64,000 nt of DNA from Hoeflea prorocentri (GTDB taxonomy: Bacteria; Pseudomonadota; Alphaproteobacteria; Rhizobiales; Rhizobiaceae), in NCBI RefSeq assembly GCF_027944115.1, contig NZ_JAPJZI010000001.1:3596001-3660000 (forward strand), read 5' to 3'. Both the position numbers and the translations under genes were made by a program. The notes beneath the pieces were generated by a model. That model worked only from the letters and a program-made list of their open reading frames with translations. It did not search any database and was not told where the DNA came from. Positions 18,566-25,804 of this stretch are shown one piece after another (within the stretch, counting starts at the first letter, position 1; each line of letters opens with the position of its first letter).

Positions 18566-18627
18566 ACCTGAACAGGCGCAGCACAGCTGCGTCGGCAATG
18601 CACGAAGGGTGCAGGAAAGGAAAGACC

Positions 18628-19311
18628 ATGCATATTGAACCGGGCGTCGTTGACGGCGCCAAACTGGCCTTGAGCTACGCCACCGCCGCCGGCGCAGGCG
18701 GCCTGATGCTGAAAATGGCCTTTGACGACGTAAAGTCCAATGGAGGCGTAGCGGCGCTGGCCATACGCAGCGTGGCGACGACCGTGCTGGTCTTCAGCTT
18801 CTTTGAGATCTTCCCGCATTTCCCCGTCGGGGTTTCGGAGGTTCACTTTATTCTCGGCGCAACACTCTACCTGGTCTTCGGCGCCGGCCCGGCAGCGATC
18901 GGCCTTGCCCTCGGCCTTCTGGCGCAGGGCGTTTTCTTCGCGCCATTCGACCTGCCGCAATACGGCATGAACCTGACGACGCTGGTCTTGCCTCTCTTTG
19001 CCGTCAGCCTTCTGGCCAGGAAGATCATTCCGTCGCACACGGCTTACAAAGACGTTTCCTACAAACAGGCGCTCGCGCTTTCGACCACCTATCAGGGCGG
19101 CATCGTTGTCTGGGTCGCCTTCTGGGCTTTCTACGGCGGCGGCTTCGGAGCGGAGAACCTGGCGCAGATCGGAACCTTCGGTATCGCCTATATGAGCGTG
19201 ATCATCCTTGAGCCGGTGCTTGACCTTGGCATTCTCGCCATCGCCAAGAACTGGGATAATCTGAAGGACAGCCGGCTTTTCAACCGACGTCTCTACAGCG
19301 CTCACGCCTGA
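18628..19311 (+). CDS. CbiM-like cobalt/cobalamin-related ECF transport membrane protein (solitary)
   Basis: 227-residue multi-pass membrane protein beginning MHIEPGVVDG, the N-terminal motif of CbiM/NikM substrate-capture components, where the N-terminal Met-His and a later His bind Co(II). About six to seven hydrophobic helices follow. The ATG at 18628 has AGGAAAGG upstream. The gene is directly under a cobalamin riboswitch, supporting cobalt supply for B12. No CbiN, CbiQ or CbiO gene follows; the next gene is unrelated. Either energising subunits are encoded elsewhere or it works alone. Confidence 0.85.
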   Translation: MHIEPGVVDGAKLALSYATAAGAGGLMLKMAFDDVKSNGGVAALAIRSVATTVLVFSFFEIFPHFPVGVSEVHFILGATLYLVFGAGPAAIGLALGLLAQGVFFAPFDLPQYGMNLTTLVLPLFAVSLLARKIIPSHTAYKDVSYKQALALSTTYQGGIVVWVAFWAFYGGGFGAENLAQIGTFGIAYMSVIILEPVLDLGILAIAKNWDNLKDSRLFNRRLYSAHA

Positions 19312-19406: not shown

Positions 19407-20636
19407 ATGAACCGGCGACTCAACCGGCGGTTCGTCACAGGCTCGACCTTCCGCCTCATCGACCGGAGGGACGTTCTGCGCGGTCCATTTCGCATCCTGC
19501 TTGCAGCACTCTCGATCGGCTTTGTTTCCTCCGCAGACAGCCGGGCGGAAACCGGCGTTCATTCAGACCGGATCGTTCTCGGCCAATCGGCGGCCTTCAA
19601 CGGCCCGGCCGCCTCGCTCGGAACCGCGTTCCGGGACGGACTGAACGCCGCCTTCAAAGCGGTCAACCGGTCGGGCGGCATTCATGGCCGACATATCCGG
19701 CTTATCGGGTATGATGACGGCTATGAGCCGGAACAGGCAATCGCCAACACGAAAAAGCTGATCGACGACGACGCGGTCTTCGCACTGATCGGAGAGGTCG
19801 GCACGCCGACATCGCGCGCCGCCCACCCGCTTTCGGAGAAGGCGGGCATTCCCTTCGTTGCGCCCTTTACCGGCGCCTCGTTCCTGCGTGATCCCGCCCT
19901 TATCACTGCCATCAACCTGCGCGCCTCCTACGCTCAGGAGGCTGAAGCGCTGATCGGATATCTGACCGGTAGCGAGCATATGAGCCGCATCGCCGTCCTC
20001 TACCAGGACGACACGTTCGGGCGGGTCGGGCTGAATGGGGTGCGCGAGGCGCTGAAGCGGCGGGATATGGCGCCGGTTTCGGAAGAAACGTTCCGGCGCA
20101 ACACTACCGCCGTCAAGCGCGCGCTGCTTTCTATCCGCCGTTCACAACCGGAAGCCGTCATCATTGTCGGGCCATACGAGCCCGCCGCTGTATTCATCAA
20201 GACGGCTGCACAAATCGGCTTCGAGCCGACATTCGCGGCGCTGTCTTTTGTCGGCAGCAAGGCGCTGGCCGCGGAACTCCATCCGAATGATCATGCGGTC
20301 GTCGTTTCGCAAGTCGTACCGCTGTTTGACGACCGTACCCTCCCCCTTGCCAAAAACTTCCTCGACGCGCTGACTGCAGCCAATCCGCAGGCCGAGGCAG
20401 GTTTTGTCACGCTTGAAGGTTATATCGCCGGAAGGCTGGTTGCCGAGGCGCTGCGCCGGCTCGGACCGCAGCCGACACGAAGCGCTTTTCTCGATCTCTT
20501 CAAATCGCCTGCCACATTCGACATAGATGGCATGGTTCTGGAATTCGGCCCAGGTGACAATCAGGGCTCCGACCGCGTCTTCCTGACGGCGATCGGCGAA
20601 GACGGCAGCTTTGTCGCCCTGGATGCCGGATTATGA
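19407..20636 (+). CDS. Periplasmic type I binding protein (LivK-like), probable sensor partner of the adjacent cyclase
   Basis: 409 residues with a long basic N-terminus (the true start may be later, e.g. nearer LRGPFRILLAALSIGFVSS, the hydrophobic export signal). The mature domain is a Leu/Ile/Val-binding-protein fold: IVLGQSAAFNGPAASLG, GGIHGRHIRLIGYDDGYEP, then IAVLYQDDTFGRVGLNGV. No permease or ATPase gene is near. Instead its last four bases overlap the start of a membrane adenylate cyclase (ATGA). By analogy with TorT/TorS or LuxP/LuxQ pairs it probably reports a periplasmic ligand to that cyclase (inference). Confidence 0.85.
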   Translation: MNRRLNRRFVTGSTFRLIDRRDVLRGPFRILLAALSIGFVSSADSRAETGVHSDRIVLGQSAAFNGPAASLGTAFRDGLNAAFKAVNRSGGIHGRHIRLIGYDDGYEPEQAIANTKKLIDDDAVFALIGEVGTPTSRAAHPLSEKAGIPFVAPFTGASFLRDPALITAINLRASYAQEAEALIGYLTGSEHMSRIAVLYQDDTFGRVGLNGVREALKRRDMAPVSEETFRRNTTAVKRALLSIRRSQPEAVIIVGPYEPAAVFIKTAAQIGFEPTFAALSFVGSKALAAELHPNDHAVVVSQVVPLFDDRTLPLAKNFLDALTAANPQAEAGFVTLEGYIAGRLVAEALRRLGPQPTRSAFLDLFKSPATFDIDGMVLEFGPGDNQGSDRVFLTAIGEDGSFVALDAGL

Positions 20637-23149
20637 GTGACAATGCCGGGACAACGGATGCGCTTGCCGGTATGCCGGCGACGCGCTTCGGCATAAAGCC
20701 GCAACTCTCCCTCGCGTTTATCGCTATGACAGCGATGACTGCCCTTGTGGGCGCTGTCGCCTGGCTGATCTTTGAGCAGATCGAGCACACGGTTGTCGAG
20801 ATAACCGAACACAGTATTCCTGAAATCACTCTGGCAACACAAATCGCCGATGTCGGAGCCGATATCACGGCCTTCGCGCCGACGATCACCGCCAGCCGAA
20901 CACAGAACGAGCGCGTACGGCGGCGCGACAGGCTGGACGGTGACGGTTCCCGCCTGCGCGATCTCGTCAGCCAATGGACGCATGAGCAGGTCGCTCTCTC
21001 TGCTGCCGCGCGCCTGTCGGAAGCGGCGGACAATATCGCCCGGCAGATCGAAATTGCCGACCGGGCCGTGGAGGACCAGCTCAACCGGGCGGCATCCATC
21101 AACGAACGCAGCGCCGTTCTCGACAAGACCCACACCGCCCTTCTCGACGCATTGGAACCGTTGATAGACGACGCCGTCTTCGAGGTTGTGATCGAGGGTG
21201 AGCAGAGCGCCACCGGCGGGTCGGGCAGCAATGGACAGGACCTGTCGGAACTGATCGACACGGGCGTGATGTCGCTTCTGCATCTCCTGACGCTGCAGGC
21301 GGACGGCAATCTGGCGGTTGGTATTTTGCGGGAGGTGGCCGACACATCCGATCTCGCTCTTCTGACGCCCATGGCGGAGCGGTTTCGCGCCGTTTCCGAG
21401 CGGCTTGAGAGGACCCTTCCCCTCGTTCCCGCAACCATTGACCGAACGGTATTGCAGCAAAACATATCAATCCTGACGGGATCCGGCCTTGGGACAGACA
21501 ATATCTTCGAGCTCAAGCGCACTCAGTTGCAGCAGGCCGAGACGGCGCAAGCCGCACTTGGCGACATACGCATTCAGTCGGCGGCCATTTCGTCTGCAGT
21601 GGCGGAGCTCGTACAGGCCGCGGAGGATGAAAGCCGGCAGACCGCAGCAAGGGCGCGGGACATTATCGGCGGCGGGCACACCGCTATCGCCGCGATCTCG
21701 GTGGCAAGCGTCGGCTTTGCAATCCTGATGCTCATCCTCTTTGTCGGACCGCGGCTGGTGCGCCCGATCGAGCAAACCACAAACACCATGTCGAGGCTTG
21801 CCGCCGGCGACACGGATGTTGCCATTCCGGGCCTTGAGCGGCGTGACGAGATTGGCCGGATGGCCCGGGCGCTGGAAGTCTTCCGCGATATCACAATCGA
21901 GGTTCAAGAGTCGAACCTGCGCGAGATCGAGACCGCAAGGCGGCGTCTCCACGATGCCATCGAGAGCATATCGGAAGGGTTTTCGCTCTATAACGGCGAG
22001 GACCAGCTTGTCGTCTGCAACGACAAATATGGCGAGCTGGTGCATCCCGAAATCGCCGACCGCGTTGAGCCGGGCATGACGTTCGAAGAGATCGTACGCA
22101 TGTCGCTTGATGAGGGATTGATCGAGGAGGCGCGGGGCCGTGAAGAGGAGTGGCTGCGCGAGCGCCTTGCCGTGCATCGCAATCCCGGCCAACCGCATCT
22201 GATGAAACGGTCGAACGGCATGTGGATCATGGTCAGCGAGCGCCAGACCGCCGAGGGCGGGATTGTCGCCGTTTATTCCGACATCACCGAGCTGAAGGAG
22301 CGGGAAAACGAACTGGCGGCCAAGTCCAAGGCGCTCGAAGATCTATCCGGGCAATTGTCGAAATATCTGTCGCCGCAGATCTACCAGTCGATCTTCTCCG
22401 GCCAGCAGGCCGCAACTGTTGCCAGCGAACGCAAAAAGCTCACCGTCTTCTTCTCCGACCTTGAAGGCTTTACCGAAAAGGCCGACCGGATGGAGGCCGA
22501 AGACCTGTCAAATCTTCTCAACGAATATCTGACGGAAATGTCGCAGATCGCGCTGGAGCACGGTGCGACCATCGACAAATATGTCGGGGATGCGGTGATT
22601 GCCTTTTTCGGCGACCCGGTCTCGCGCGGGCTGCGTGAAGACGCTCTCGCCTGCGTGCGCATGGCCATCGCCATGCAGAAACGGCTTGAGGAACTGGCGC
22701 CGAAATGGGCCGCCTCCGGTCTTTCCGAGCAGCTGCAATGCCGTATGGGCATCTCGACCGGCTATTGCACGGTGGGCAATTTCGGCAGCGAGGACCGCAT
22801 GGACTACACCATCATCGGCAGTCCGGTGAACCTTGCATCGCGGCTGGAGACCGCGGCGATGCCGGGCTCGATCCTGATCTCGGCGGAAACGCGCAACCTG
22901 GTGCACCAGGATATCCCGTGCCGGGAACACGAAACACTGGAAATCAAAGGCTTCGCCTACCCCGTCAAATCCTATCTGGCGCTTTTCGATGATGCGGAGG
23001 GTACCGACTATATCAGCGAGCGGAGCGACAATCTGACCATTGATGTTGATCTGGAAGCCATGACCGCATCCGAACGCAAAAAGGCGACGGAGGTGCTTGA
23101 AAAGATCGTCAACAAGCTGAAGGACGGCGATCACGACGAAAGACCATGA
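20633..23149 (+). CDS. Membrane adenylate cyclase with periplasmic sensor, HAMP and PAS-like region (class III)
   Basis: 838 residues. A first TM helix (about 23-46) is followed by a largely helical periplasmic region to about 340, a second TM helix (about 347-370), a HAMP domain (RLVRPIEQTTNTMSRLAAGDTDVAI), a PAS-like segment (RLHDAIESISEGFSLYN), a coiled coil and a C-terminal class III catalytic domain (about 600-780). Both metal aspartates are visible (FFSDLEGF; KYVGDAVIAFF), as are the adenine-selecting Lys (IDKYVGD) and Thr (DYTIIG) and the transition-state Asn/Arg (VNLASRLE), so it should make cAMP. It is coupled to the upstream binding-protein gene by a 4-base overlap. Confidence 0.9.
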   Translation: MSDNAGTTDALAGMPATRFGIKPQLSLAFIAMTAMTALVGAVAWLIFEQIEHTVVEITEHSIPEITLATQIADVGADITAFAPTITASRTQNERVRRRDRLDGDGSRLRDLVSQWTHEQVALSAAARLSEAADNIARQIEIADRAVEDQLNRAASINERSAVLDKTHTALLDALEPLIDDAVFEVVIEGEQSATGGSGSNGQDLSELIDTGVMSLLHLLTLQADGNLAVGILREVADTSDLALLTPMAERFRAVSERLERTLPLVPATIDRTVLQQNISILTGSGLGTDNIFELKRTQLQQAETAQAALGDIRIQSAAISSAVAELVQAAEDESRQTAARARDIIGGGHTAIAAISVASVGFAILMLILFVGPRLVRPIEQTTNTMSRLAAGDTDVAIPGLERRDEIGRMARALEVFRDITIEVQESNLREIETARRRLHDAIESISEGFSLYNGEDQLVVCNDKYGELVHPEIADRVEPGMTFEEIVRMSLDEGLIEEARGREEEWLRERLAVHRNPGQPHLMKRSNGMWIMVSERQTAEGGIVAVYSDITELKERENELAAKSKALEDLSGQLSKYLSPQIYQSIFSGQQAATVASERKKLTVFFSDLEGFTEKADRMEAEDLSNLLNEYLTEMSQIALEHGATIDKYVGDAVIAFFGDPVSRGLREDALACVRMAIAMQKRLEELAPKWAASGLSEQLQCRMGISTGYCTVGNFGSEDRMDYTIIGSPVNLASRLETAAMPGSILISAETRNLVHQDIPCREHETLEIKGFAYPVKSYLALFDDAEGTDYISERSDNLTIDVDLEAMTASERKKATEVLEKIVNKLKDGDHDERP

Positions 23150-23226: not shown

Positions 23227-25107
23227 TTGAGCGGGCCCGTCAAAATCGGCAGGCGCGAGGTGCGGTCCGGCCTGCTTGGCGGGCTGGCAGCGCTTCTTGT
23301 TGCGCTGCTGCTATGGGCCGCGCCGCCGTCAGTCCGGGAGCGGCTGAACCAGCCTGCGGCCGACGCCATCGCTGGGTTCTGGCCGGCATCGTCAACCGAC
23401 CGGATCGTGGTTGTCGATATCGACAGCGCCAGCCTGAGGGATTTCGATGGCAGGCGTTTGTCTCGACGCCGTCTTGCCGATCTGTTCGAGGCCATCGATG
23501 GGCTCGACCCGGCGGTGGTTGCTATCGATCTGGTTCTGGAGCCGCCGTGCTCGCAGTTCGATCCCGATGTCGCACGCCTGCAGGCAGCCCTGGCAGCCCG
23601 CCCGGCAACAATGGGCTTCCTGCTGTCGAGCGACCCGTCTGCCGAGCCGTCGCAGAAAAGCCCGGTCGCCGTCAGCCCGGATGTACGATTGCCGCAAGCC
23701 TGGACAGCGGCGGGCGCCGAAACCACCTGCGCGCGTCTTGTCGAGGCGGCATCGGGTCTCTCGTCCGCTTCGCTTGCCGGCGGTTTCGATGCCAGGATCC
23801 GCACCGCCCCGGCGGTGGTGGCGGTCGGCAACCAGCCCTTCCCGTCCCTTGGCGTCGATGCGCTGCGCCTCGCTATGCGCACCGGCGCGCTCATCCTTTT
23901 TGGCGACCCTCCGATGCTGCGTGTCGGTGACCTTACCGCGCGCCTCGACAGTGCCGGCGATGTCCGGCTGCGCCACTCATCGTCGGCGCAACAGAATGCC
24001 CGTACGATAGTGGCAGCCGACATATTGAGCGGCGAGCATCCGCCCGACATCCTTTCAGGCAAGATTGTCTTTGTCGGCTCGAGCGCCGCTGAACTGGGCG
24101 GCCTTCGCCCTGTTCCCGGCGATCCGGTCAAACCGTCCGTGCAGATACAGGCCGACCTTGCCACCAATCTTCTGCTCGGCAACAGCCCGGTGATACCGGC
24201 GTGGGGCGATAGTGCTTCGCTCGGCGCCGCCATTGTGATCGGAATCGGTCTGGCTTTTCTCGGCGCCATGACACGGCCGCTCGCAGCGGCCGGCTTCACG
24301 CTCGCAGCCGTTGCGGGCTGGCTGGGCTTGTACAGTTTTCTCTATCACGGCGCGCACCTGATGCTCGATCCGGTCGTACCGGCCCTTTCGATGATTGTCG
24401 GCGCCATCGTTGCCAGCACCGCTCAGTTCTCGGCGGTCAGGCGGGCTGAATCCGTCATTCGCCAGCGCTTTGAACAAAGGCTGCCGGGCGCGGTGGTCAA
24501 GAAGCTCGTCGCCGAACCCGATCTTTTGAAGCTGAAGGGCGAGCAGCGTGTCGCCACCTCGATGTTTACCGATGTGGAAGGCTTCACCACAACGACCGAA
24601 CGCGTCAGCCCGCAGGATATGATCCAGCTTCTCGACCGGTATTTCGAAGGGTTGACGGGCATAATCATCGGCTATGGCGGGATGATCGACAAAACCATCG
24701 GCGACGGCATCCATGCGCTGTTCAATGCGCCCGTCGATCTGGAAAACCATGAAGAGGCGGCGCTGTCGTGCGCGCGCGACATCCTTGCTTTCTCGGAGGA
24801 ATTTCGTTCAGAAGGTTTCGCCAAGGAAGCGAGCTTCGGCCGCACCCGCATCGGGATTGAAACAGGCGATGTGGTGCTGGGCGATGTCGGGGTTGCGGAC
24901 CGCGTCGACTACACGGCCTTCGGCTCGTCGGTGAATACGGCCGCCCGGCTTCAAGATGCCAACAAACGTTTCGGAACGTCGATCCTGCTTGGCCCGGGCG
25001 TACGAAAGAGCCTCACGGGAGACTTTGAGGATATGGGCGAGATCGAGTTGCGCGGGATCGGAACGATCCATGCCTACGGCATACGCCTGAAACCCGACAA
25101 CGCCTAA
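23227..25107 (+). CDS. CHASE2-domain adenylate cyclase (class III)
   Basis: 626 residues starting at a TTG. An N-terminal TM helix precedes an extracytoplasmic CHASE2 domain (IVVVDIDSASLRDF ... VVAIDLVLE ... GKIVFVGSSAAELGG) to about residue 315. Three C-terminal TM helices (about 325-400) follow, then a cytoplasmic cyclase domain. The catalytic residues are intact: FTDVEGF and IGDGIHALF for metals, the Lys in IDKTIGD and Thr in VDYTAFG for adenine, and VNTAARL for catalysis. It lies 77 bases after the first cyclase and overlaps the FecR gene tail-to-tail by four bases. The stimulus is unknown. Confidence 0.9.
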   Translation: MSGPVKIGRREVRSGLLGGLAALLVALLLWAAPPSVRERLNQPAADAIAGFWPASSTDRIVVVDIDSASLRDFDGRRLSRRRLADLFEAIDGLDPAVVAIDLVLEPPCSQFDPDVARLQAALAARPATMGFLLSSDPSAEPSQKSPVAVSPDVRLPQAWTAAGAETTCARLVEAASGLSSASLAGGFDARIRTAPAVVAVGNQPFPSLGVDALRLAMRTGALILFGDPPMLRVGDLTARLDSAGDVRLRHSSSAQQNARTIVAADILSGEHPPDILSGKIVFVGSSAAELGGLRPVPGDPVKPSVQIQADLATNLLLGNSPVIPAWGDSASLGAAIVIGIGLAFLGAMTRPLAAAGFTLAAVAGWLGLYSFLYHGAHLMLDPVVPALSMIVGAIVASTAQFSAVRRAESVIRQRFEQRLPGAVVKKLVAEPDLLKLKGEQRVATSMFTDVEGFTTTTERVSPQDMIQLLDRYFEGLTGIIIGYGGMIDKTIGDGIHALFNAPVDLENHEEAALSCARDILAFSEEFRSEGFAKEASFGRTRIGIETGDVVLGDVGVADRVDYTAFGSSVNTAARLQDANKRFGTSILLGPGVRKSLTGDFEDMGEIELRGIGTIHAYGIRLKPDNA

Positions 25108-25736
25108 CGCGGCTCCACGCTGGCAAAAGCACTCGCGATACGTTCATCCGACCAGCGGATGATGTCGGACGCCGGCGCACCGGGGGCTGGAATATCAACT
25201 CCGTCGCCGGACGAAAGGAGTTGCGTTGCGCCTGCAGCCGTCACGCTCAGCGCGCCGCGCTCGACAAAAACGCCAAACACGCCATTGCTCGGACCGGCAA
25301 AGAACCGTGTTCCACGCACGCCGAGCTGGCCGAACACCGTGCGGATGGTCGTTGCTGTCTTGGGCGCGCTTTCGGGCCGGTCGAAAACCATCGCGCCATT
25401 GGAAAGGTCGAACGTGCCGCCAATATCGAGAAGATATTCATCGATGAGCAATTCCGCATCCTCGCCAAGCCGCATATCCGTTTCATCGCCTAAGCGCATC
25501 GCAAGGAAGCTCTGATTGCCGGTCTTGATCAGATCGCGAACCATAACGTCTGCGCCGATGCGCAGGGCAACGGGCTCCTTGCCACGCTCCGCAGTCGCTT
25601 CTCCTGTCAGCGCGGTGACCTCGCCGATTGCATCAGCGGCCAACAGGCGGGACGGCAGCAACATGCCTGATACCGCGACGGAAAGTCCGGCAAGGACGCG
25701 CCGGCGGTTCGGATGTCCAGCAAAAAGGCTACGCAT
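25104..25736 (-). CDS. FecR-domain periplasmic protein
   Basis: 210 residues. A Tat-like signal (NRRRVLAGLSVAVSGML) precedes a FecR domain: GEVTALTGEATAERG, an IGADVMVRDLIKTGNQSFLAMRLGD stretch, and VFGQLGVRGTRFFAG. No transmembrane or anti-sigma segment is present, so it is not a classical FecR regulator but a free periplasmic domain protein. I chose ATG 25736 because GGAG lies just before it; ATG 25748 is the alternative. It converges on the CHASE2 cyclase gene, overlapping its stop, which suggests a shared periplasmic role (inference). Confidence 0.82.
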   Translation of the reverse strand: MRSLFAGHPNRRRVLAGLSVAVSGMLLPSRLLAADAIGEVTALTGEATAERGKEPVALRIGADVMVRDLIKTGNQSFLAMRLGDETDMRLGEDAELLIDEYLLDIGGTFDLSNGAMVFDRPESAPKTATTIRTVFGQLGVRGTRFFAGPSNGVFGVFVERGALSVTAAGATQLLSSGDGVDIPAPGAPASDIIRWSDERIASAFASVEPR

Positions 25737-25804
25737 GTTCTCTCCCATCAGGGTTCAGTACTGCTAGAGATATGCATCATTGTGTGCGGTTTTAAGGCCA
25801 TACT

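Follow-up and report, generated by a model that had tools for sequence, protein, structure and literature searches.

In the LuxP–LuxQ system, which responds to autoinducer 2 (AI-2), a membrane receptor relays the signal of a binding protein, and in NspS–MbaA of Vibrio cholerae a binding protein controls a second-messenger enzyme. According to the accessible part of PMC9602780 (2022), receptors activated by solute-binding proteins (SBPs) comprise chemoreceptors, sensor kinases, diguanylate cyclases/phosphodiesterases and Ser/Thr kinases; SBP-driven cyclic di-GMP (c-di-GMP) enzymes are named there as a class, and adenylate cyclases appear only as a receptor type, outside the SBP-activated list. 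In the literature within reach of our search, which lay outside most subscription journals, no description of an SBP-controlled adenylate cyclase was found. Here we analyse a stretch of 64,000 nucleotides from Hoeflea prorocentri (hereafter the window; contig NZ_JAPJZI010000001.1, positions 3,596,001 to 3,660,000), in which the gene of a periplasmic binding protein overlaps that of a membrane class III adenylate cyclase. The two proteins very probably form a split transmembrane receptor for cyclic AMP (cAMP) signalling, built like TorT–TorS of Escherichia coli, which senses trimethylamine N-oxide (TMAO), with a cyclase as its output; contact between the proteins, gating and the cAMP product are predicted. 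An initial annotation had already seen in the pair a mirror of TorT–TorS with cAMP as output, and this reading is well supported by the fold of the sensor, by the conservation of the pair and by the absence of a BPD_transp_2 permease beside it. The elements of the pair are the following, with window coordinates, strand and evidence.

19407..20636, + strand: binding-protein gene (type I, Peripla_BP_6), 409 residues including an N-terminal export segment (open reading frame (ORF), Pfam, AlphaFold model, PDB match 4kv7)
20633..20636, + strand: ATGA stop/start overlap of the binding-protein and cyclase genes (sequence; 4-base overlap in 4/4 orthologues)
20633..23149, + strand: membrane class III adenylate cyclase with TorS-like sensor, 838 residues (ORF, Pfam, NCBIfam, PDB)
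20717..20773, + strand: first transmembrane segment of the cyclase, residues 29-47 (hydropathy)
20774..21685, + strand: helical periplasmic domain with predicted TorS-sensor fold, residues 48-351 (AlphaFold model, Foldseek, profile)
21686..21742, + strand: second transmembrane segment of the cyclase, residues 352-370 (hydropathy)
21752..21889, + strand: HAMP domain, residues 374-419 (Pfam)
21959..22306, + strand: PAS_7 domain, residues 443-558 (Pfam)
22427..22966, + strand: class III cyclase catalytic domain (Guanylate_cyc), residues 599-778 (Pfam; D609, K649, D653, T726, N733, R737)

The periplasmic domain of the cyclase carries much of the argument. An AlphaFold model of residues 1-430, computed with an input alignment of 71 sensors, reached a mean predicted local distance difference test score (pLDDT) of 86.6, and Foldseek searches of the PDB with it returned six matches at E ≤ 0.001, all of them TorS sensor domains. 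The top four were TorS from TorS–TorT complexes (3o1i, 3o1j, 3o1h), with TM-scores of 0.82-0.84 by target and 0.53-0.55 by query, and the first match other than TorS was PilJ (E 4.5e-3). The sequence profile of the 71 sensors alone finds TorS at E 4.2e-12. At the level of family models, the Pfam TorS_sensor_domain (PF21689) is borderline at residues 62-169: the protein scan gives 24.8 bits (E 1.8e-5), where 27 are required, and the same frame attains 27.5 bits, just above the cut-off, in the genome scan. The NCBIfam TorS model (TIGR02956) aligns residues 21-436 in order (E 7e-29) with 100.5 bits, short of its cut-off of 676.5, and behind the sensor Pfam shows only HAMP, PAS_7 and Guanylate_cyc. 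As modelled, the periplasmic domain shares the TorS sensor fold; the protein resembles TorS on its input side, yet is not a TorS histidine kinase. The large helical periplasmic region, HAMP and PAS of the initial annotation were all recovered, by hydropathy (about 300 residues), the model and Pfam.

The orthologous cyclases are about 150 residues longer than the window protein, and the extra length lies in the sensor. In a direct-alignment test against 300 shuffles, run on 11 long cyclases and the window protein, the extra stretch resembles a tandem repeat of about 140 residues, with z > 5 in 10 of the 11 (3.2 in L058) and a score above all shuffles in 9 of the 11 (exceptions L058 and L067). 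The apparent repeat lies at residues of about 170-460 in the cyclases of L055-L058, L060-L062, L064, L067, L068 and L073. The window sensor is a single copy (repeat z -0.1), and its match in length to TorS points the same way.

The catalytic domain has as its closest solved structure by sequence CyaB of Pseudomonas aeruginosa (3r5g, E 1.3e-66). D609, K649, D653, T726, N733 and R737 are all present and do not vary across an alignment of 12 rows, the window protein among them; we take D609/D653 to be the metal-binding Asp pair, K649/T726 the adenine-selecting residues and N733/R737 the Asn and Arg of class III cyclases. Judged from these intact residues, the domain is a class III adenylate cyclase whose product would be cAMP. 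Identity as a guanylate cyclase was considered and rejected, as the Lys/Thr selectivity residues are present, a weak test since their roles are presumed. The genome holds 20 Guanylate_cyc domain matches in 5.0 Mb.

The binding protein matches Peripla_BP_6 (E 1.4e-53) and also ANF_receptor (E 4.9e-14). Its AlphaFold model (pLDDT 86.6) is nearest in the PDB to 4kv7, a Rhodopirellula protein whose deposition names it a possible Leu/Ile/Val-binding protein, followed by 3lop and 4m88, and by Pfam family and model match it belongs with LivK/LivJ in fold. On the other hand, the amino-acid-like ligand proposed in the initial annotation found no support. In a sequence alignment counted by hand, Glu226 of LivK (1usg), which we take to hold the ammonium group of the ligand, stands opposite Ser280 of the binding protein, and this serine is invariant across an 81-row alignment. 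The alignment makes an ordinary alpha-amino acid a doubtful candidate, and the ligand need not be an amino acid.

The final four bases of the binding-protein ORF are the initial four of the cyclase ORF. The two genes had been described as fused by overlap; the overlap stands and suggests coupled translation, but there is no fusion. Orthologues of the pair were sought in 61 genomes (its own, 7 more from the genus, 29 more from the family and 24 from the rest of the order). Near-full cyclase orthologues occur, besides the own genome, in three of the seven genus genomes and in one of the 29 of the family, and none was found in the 24 genomes from other families. All four orthologous cyclases are preceded by the binding protein (53-63% identity) with the identical 4-base overlap, so that the conservation across genomes named initially as a check on the pair is borne out. 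Six neighbour genes of the window, from both sides of the pair, were compared, and BLAST found none of them in the 14-18 kb surrounding the four orthologues. A chance overlap is thus unlikely and was rejected, because all four orthologues keep it while none of the six compared neighbours accompanies them.

We surveyed relatives of the binding protein with a profile from five aligned sequences, which was scanned over species genomes and gave 194 relatives; the best 80 were analysed, their genes placed by tblastn-anchored calling. They come from Alphaproteobacteria and from metagenome-assembled genomes (MAGs) of Acidimicrobiia, Acidobacteria/Holophagales, Rhodothermales and others. A same-strand ORF of at least 200 residues lies downstream in 79 of these best 80 (the exception is L125). 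By domain seeds these 79 partners fall into 45 kinases, 15 chemoreceptors, 11 cyclases, one SpoIIE phosphatase and seven unclassified proteins, three of which are truncated at a contig end (L065, L077, L133) and four of which show no recognised output (L120, L123, L124, L126). Pfam over the same partners gave HAMP in 73, HATPase_c in 45, HisKA in 46, MCPsignal in 15, Guanylate_cyc in 11, SpoIIE in one and TorS_sensor_domain in 43, and seed BLAST found a TorS-like region in 77, misplaced in three and in the expected N-terminal place in 74. The gap between binding-protein and cyclase genes at the 11 cyclase loci is -4 in five and +52 to +85 in six. Histidine kinases are thus the most frequent partner, and exclusive pairing with cyclases was rejected. 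The initial annotation had held that a binding protein found regularly apart from the cyclase in relatives would tell against the receptor; literally this is so, as most relatives adjoin kinases or chemoreceptors, but the sensor of these partners is of the same type, which speaks for a receptor rather than for transport. In Azospirillum canadense (L080:8001-12802, +) a member of the family precedes a TorS-type sensor with SpoIIE phosphatase output.

A binding-protein tree of 89 rows, made quickly, with several long branches and supported by SH-aLRT (Shimodaira–Hasegawa-like approximate likelihood-ratio test) values only, places the window protein within a supported set of seven, every one a cyclase partner. 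On supported branches the cyclase label must have changed at least twice (five times in the tree), and eight changes are needed for the four outputs combined. Repeated exchange of outputs behind this binding protein seems likely from these label changes, in a count that is blind to gain versus loss. In a less biased sample, 385 genomes of Alphaproteobacteria, the binding-protein profile gave 39 matches at E ≤ 1e-70 in 32 genomes. A receptor lies next downstream of 24 of the 29 strong matches (E ≤ 1e-140): two cyclases, one of them that of the window, 13 chemoreceptors, seven kinases and two TorS-type proteins with unclassified output (G334, truncated at a contig end, and G568). Among the 10 weaker matches, a kinase lies downstream in L258 and L259, one match in L240 stands just downstream of a binding protein–kinase pair, and seven have no such directly adjoining partner. 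Two of these seven (L261, L264) have a weak cyclase-domain match about 3 kb downstream in a separate gene, which in L261 lies behind another gene.

The same association appeared from the sensor side. A PF21689 search gave 22 matches in 20 of 199 family genomes, seven of which are cyclases (G000, G001, G026, G151, G223, G168, G095), and all seven have a Peripla_BP_6 gene immediately upstream, recognised by Pfam or by close similarity to the binding protein. The upstream proteins of G223, G168 and G095 are distant from that of the window (24-27% identity over partial length), and in G095 two different Peripla_BP_6 genes stand one behind the other ahead of the cyclase (L152:3364-8213, -). Seven of the 15 non-cyclase matches adjoin an SBP found by Pfam or BLAST, some divergently transcribed, from the families Peripla_BP_1/4, DctP, SBP_bac_11 and Peripla_BP_6; an SBP look-alike, by appearance, stands beside the sensor in L137 and L138, and for six of the 15 no SBP was recognised with BLAST of the window binding protein and inspection by eye. 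A cyclase profile was also run on the 385 genomes of the class; 15 additional matches extend into the sensor, and the neighbours of all 15 were inspected. Two of these are cyclases, both with an SBP upstream: in G569 it belongs to the family of the window binding protein and overlaps by four bases, and in G234 (L185:721-4282, -), where the sensor was called from the profile match and transmembrane spacing, it is of the NMT1 family. The other 13 comprise seven with a binding protein of the window family and six for which none was found (five chemoreceptors, one kinase).

All nine TorS-type cyclases examined from the sensor side therefore have an SBP immediately upstream, eight of Peripla_BP_6 and one of NMT1, and the binding proteins of such cyclases fall into at least two distant Peripla_BP_6 groups plus NMT1. 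The cyclase profile, built from cyclases linked to binding proteins, leans towards them, and PF21689 does not. The cyclase-profile and binding-protein surveys appear to share the same 385-genome sample and are not independent; L055, L056, L057 and L064 are the orthologue contigs of G003, G004, G001 and G026, L105 and L125 belong likewise to G342 and G498, and L067 may come from the same organism as G151. Taken together, the varied receptor outputs behind relatives of the binding protein and the SBP beside nine of nine TorS-type cyclases point to a receptor module with interchangeable outputs, presumably with cAMP among them.

We propose that a small molecule in the periplasm causes the binding protein to close and that the closed form would dock onto the cyclase dimer at its TorS-like helical domain, by analogy with TorT–TorS. 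Docking may alter the helix packing of the sensor; passed on through the second transmembrane segment, HAMP and PAS, that change could determine how active the class III adenylate cyclase is, whether by activation or by inhibition.

The Peripla_BP_6 fold family consists mostly of transport proteins, and the binding protein might be an orphan component of ATP-binding cassette (ABC) transport that stands beside the cyclase by chance and serves permeases elsewhere in the genome. Of the 19 Peripla_BP_6 genes above cut-off in the own genome, 16 indeed have a BPD_transp_2 permease within 4 kb, the exceptions being the window gene and two others, neither of which, by eye, adjoins a recognisable receptor gene. 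Permeases were searched for as the BPD_transp_2 type only. A LivHM-type permease was not found beside the binding protein: the nearest BPD_transp_2 permease is 6.4 kb off and seems, by position, to belong to a sugar-type cluster upstream, a partner elsewhere being possible. For this usual partner, the description of a LivK-type protein without transporter genes holds. ABC permeases beside relatives had been named as a further sign against a receptor. No BPD_transp_2 match occurs at any of the 11 cyclase loci (up to 8 kb each side, some loci shorter) or at 30 further binding-protein matches (20 strong and 10 weak, at 29 loci), and the same queries recovered the clusters of L207 and of the window as a positive control, but among the 80 loci there are LivH/LivM-like matches in L120, L123, L126 and L130 and a weak partial one at the edge of L059. 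Since, moreover, the pairing outlives the loss of synteny and 72 of the 79 partners are typed as signalling proteins, we regard a transport orphan as highly unlikely.

The receptor reading has further points to answer. ABC clusters of other types, with their own binding-protein genes, lie within several kb of the pair in L031-L033 (by eye), which also lends something to the transport explanation. The orthologues are patchy (3/7 in the genus, 1/29 in the family, 0/24 in other families of the order), PF21689 stays under its cut-off in the protein scan, and five of the 29 strong binding-protein matches have no recognised adjoining receptor (G498, G479, G588, the second of G342, and G488, whose downstream ORF of 627 residues has no seed match). 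Chemoreceptors with a similar sensor and no binding protein of this family found beside them (L193-L197, five of the 15 cyclase-profile matches, also L141, L150 and L151) weigh on the same side; the sensor therefore need not always use a binding protein. They would suit a cyclase whose helical domain senses the ligand directly, with the binding protein as a buffer or co-sensor without required contact, as would the all-helical sensors NarX and NarQ, which a table in PMC8534201 lists with nitrate as ligand. We consider this very improbable, given that the nearest structures are of TorS crystallised with TorT and that the SBPs adjoining all nine TorS-type cyclases come from more than one family. 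The PAS_7 domain between HAMP and the catalytic domain could also mean that the cyclase is constitutive or driven through PAS by cytoplasmic cues, the periplasmic side being a weak modulator. This possibility, which overlaps with the other readings, is unlikely, as the binding protein, sensor and HAMP are conserved jointly and HAMP is found in 73 of the 79 partners.

Several neighbouring genes and loci are of interest in their own right. Another class III cyclase gene, this one with a CHASE2 sensor (23227-25107, +), begins 77 bases past the first, and it overlaps by four bases a convergent FecR-domain gene (25104-25748, -). The CHASE2 cyclase was rejected as a conserved third component, as no CHASE2 gene occurs in the four orthologue regions. 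Upstream of the pair lies a CbiM-like (cobalt uptake) membrane gene (18598-19311, +). In Acidimicrobiia-type MAGs (L120:9089-10987, also L123, L124 and L126) the binding protein is followed by a protein of 632-640 residues, without a Pfam match in L120, the one of the four that was scanned; a LivHM-like ORF converges, by eye, on the pair in L120.

How the proposed split cAMP receptor compares with described systems can now be stated. An SBP with a TorS-type receptor of kinase output is known, and the window pair would be a variant of it with cyclase output. Like TorT–TorS, the window pair joins a periplasmic type I binding protein to a helical sensor of the same fold, followed by a second transmembrane segment and HAMP; it differs in having a cyclase with an additional PAS domain where TorS is a hybrid kinase, and its binding protein is of Peripla_BP_6, while SBPs of Peripla_BP_1/4 adjoin the two TorS-type kinases that we scanned (L135, L136). 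With NspS–MbaA and the SBP-driven c-di-GMP enzymes it shares a second-messenger enzyme controlled by a binding protein, the messenger there being c-di-GMP and not cAMP. LuxP–LuxQ, to which the initial annotation also likened the pair, is a functional parallel only, with a kinase output and, according to a table in PMC8534201, a double-PDC sensor in LuxQ. We think it rather probable that these loci represent a general bacterial class of split cAMP receptors, in which an exchangeable periplasmic binding protein feeds a TorS-type sensor joined to a class III cyclase. One binding-protein family serving kinases, chemoreceptors, a phosphatase and cyclases is moreover a natural experiment on the rewiring of an input module. 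To our knowledge, what class III cyclases sense is mostly unknown, and the question of input becomes testable where a cyclase comes with a binding protein of its own, as here in a genome with 20 class III cyclase domains.

The catalytic domain is closest by sequence to that of Pseudomonas CyaB, whose membrane part differs from that of the window cyclase. A more distant likeness is to the animal natriuretic-peptide receptor guanylate cyclases, which also have a type I binding-protein fold outside and a class III cyclase inside; the window cyclase matches atrial natriuretic peptide (ANP) receptor 1 at E 3.6e-9. Those receptors are one polypeptide, make cyclic GMP and have no helical adaptor, and the resemblance is likely a functional parallel rather than shared architectural descent. 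If the general class of split cAMP receptors exists, it would be a bacterial two-piece counterpart of the natriuretic-peptide receptor cyclases, with outputs repeatedly swapped behind one input module.

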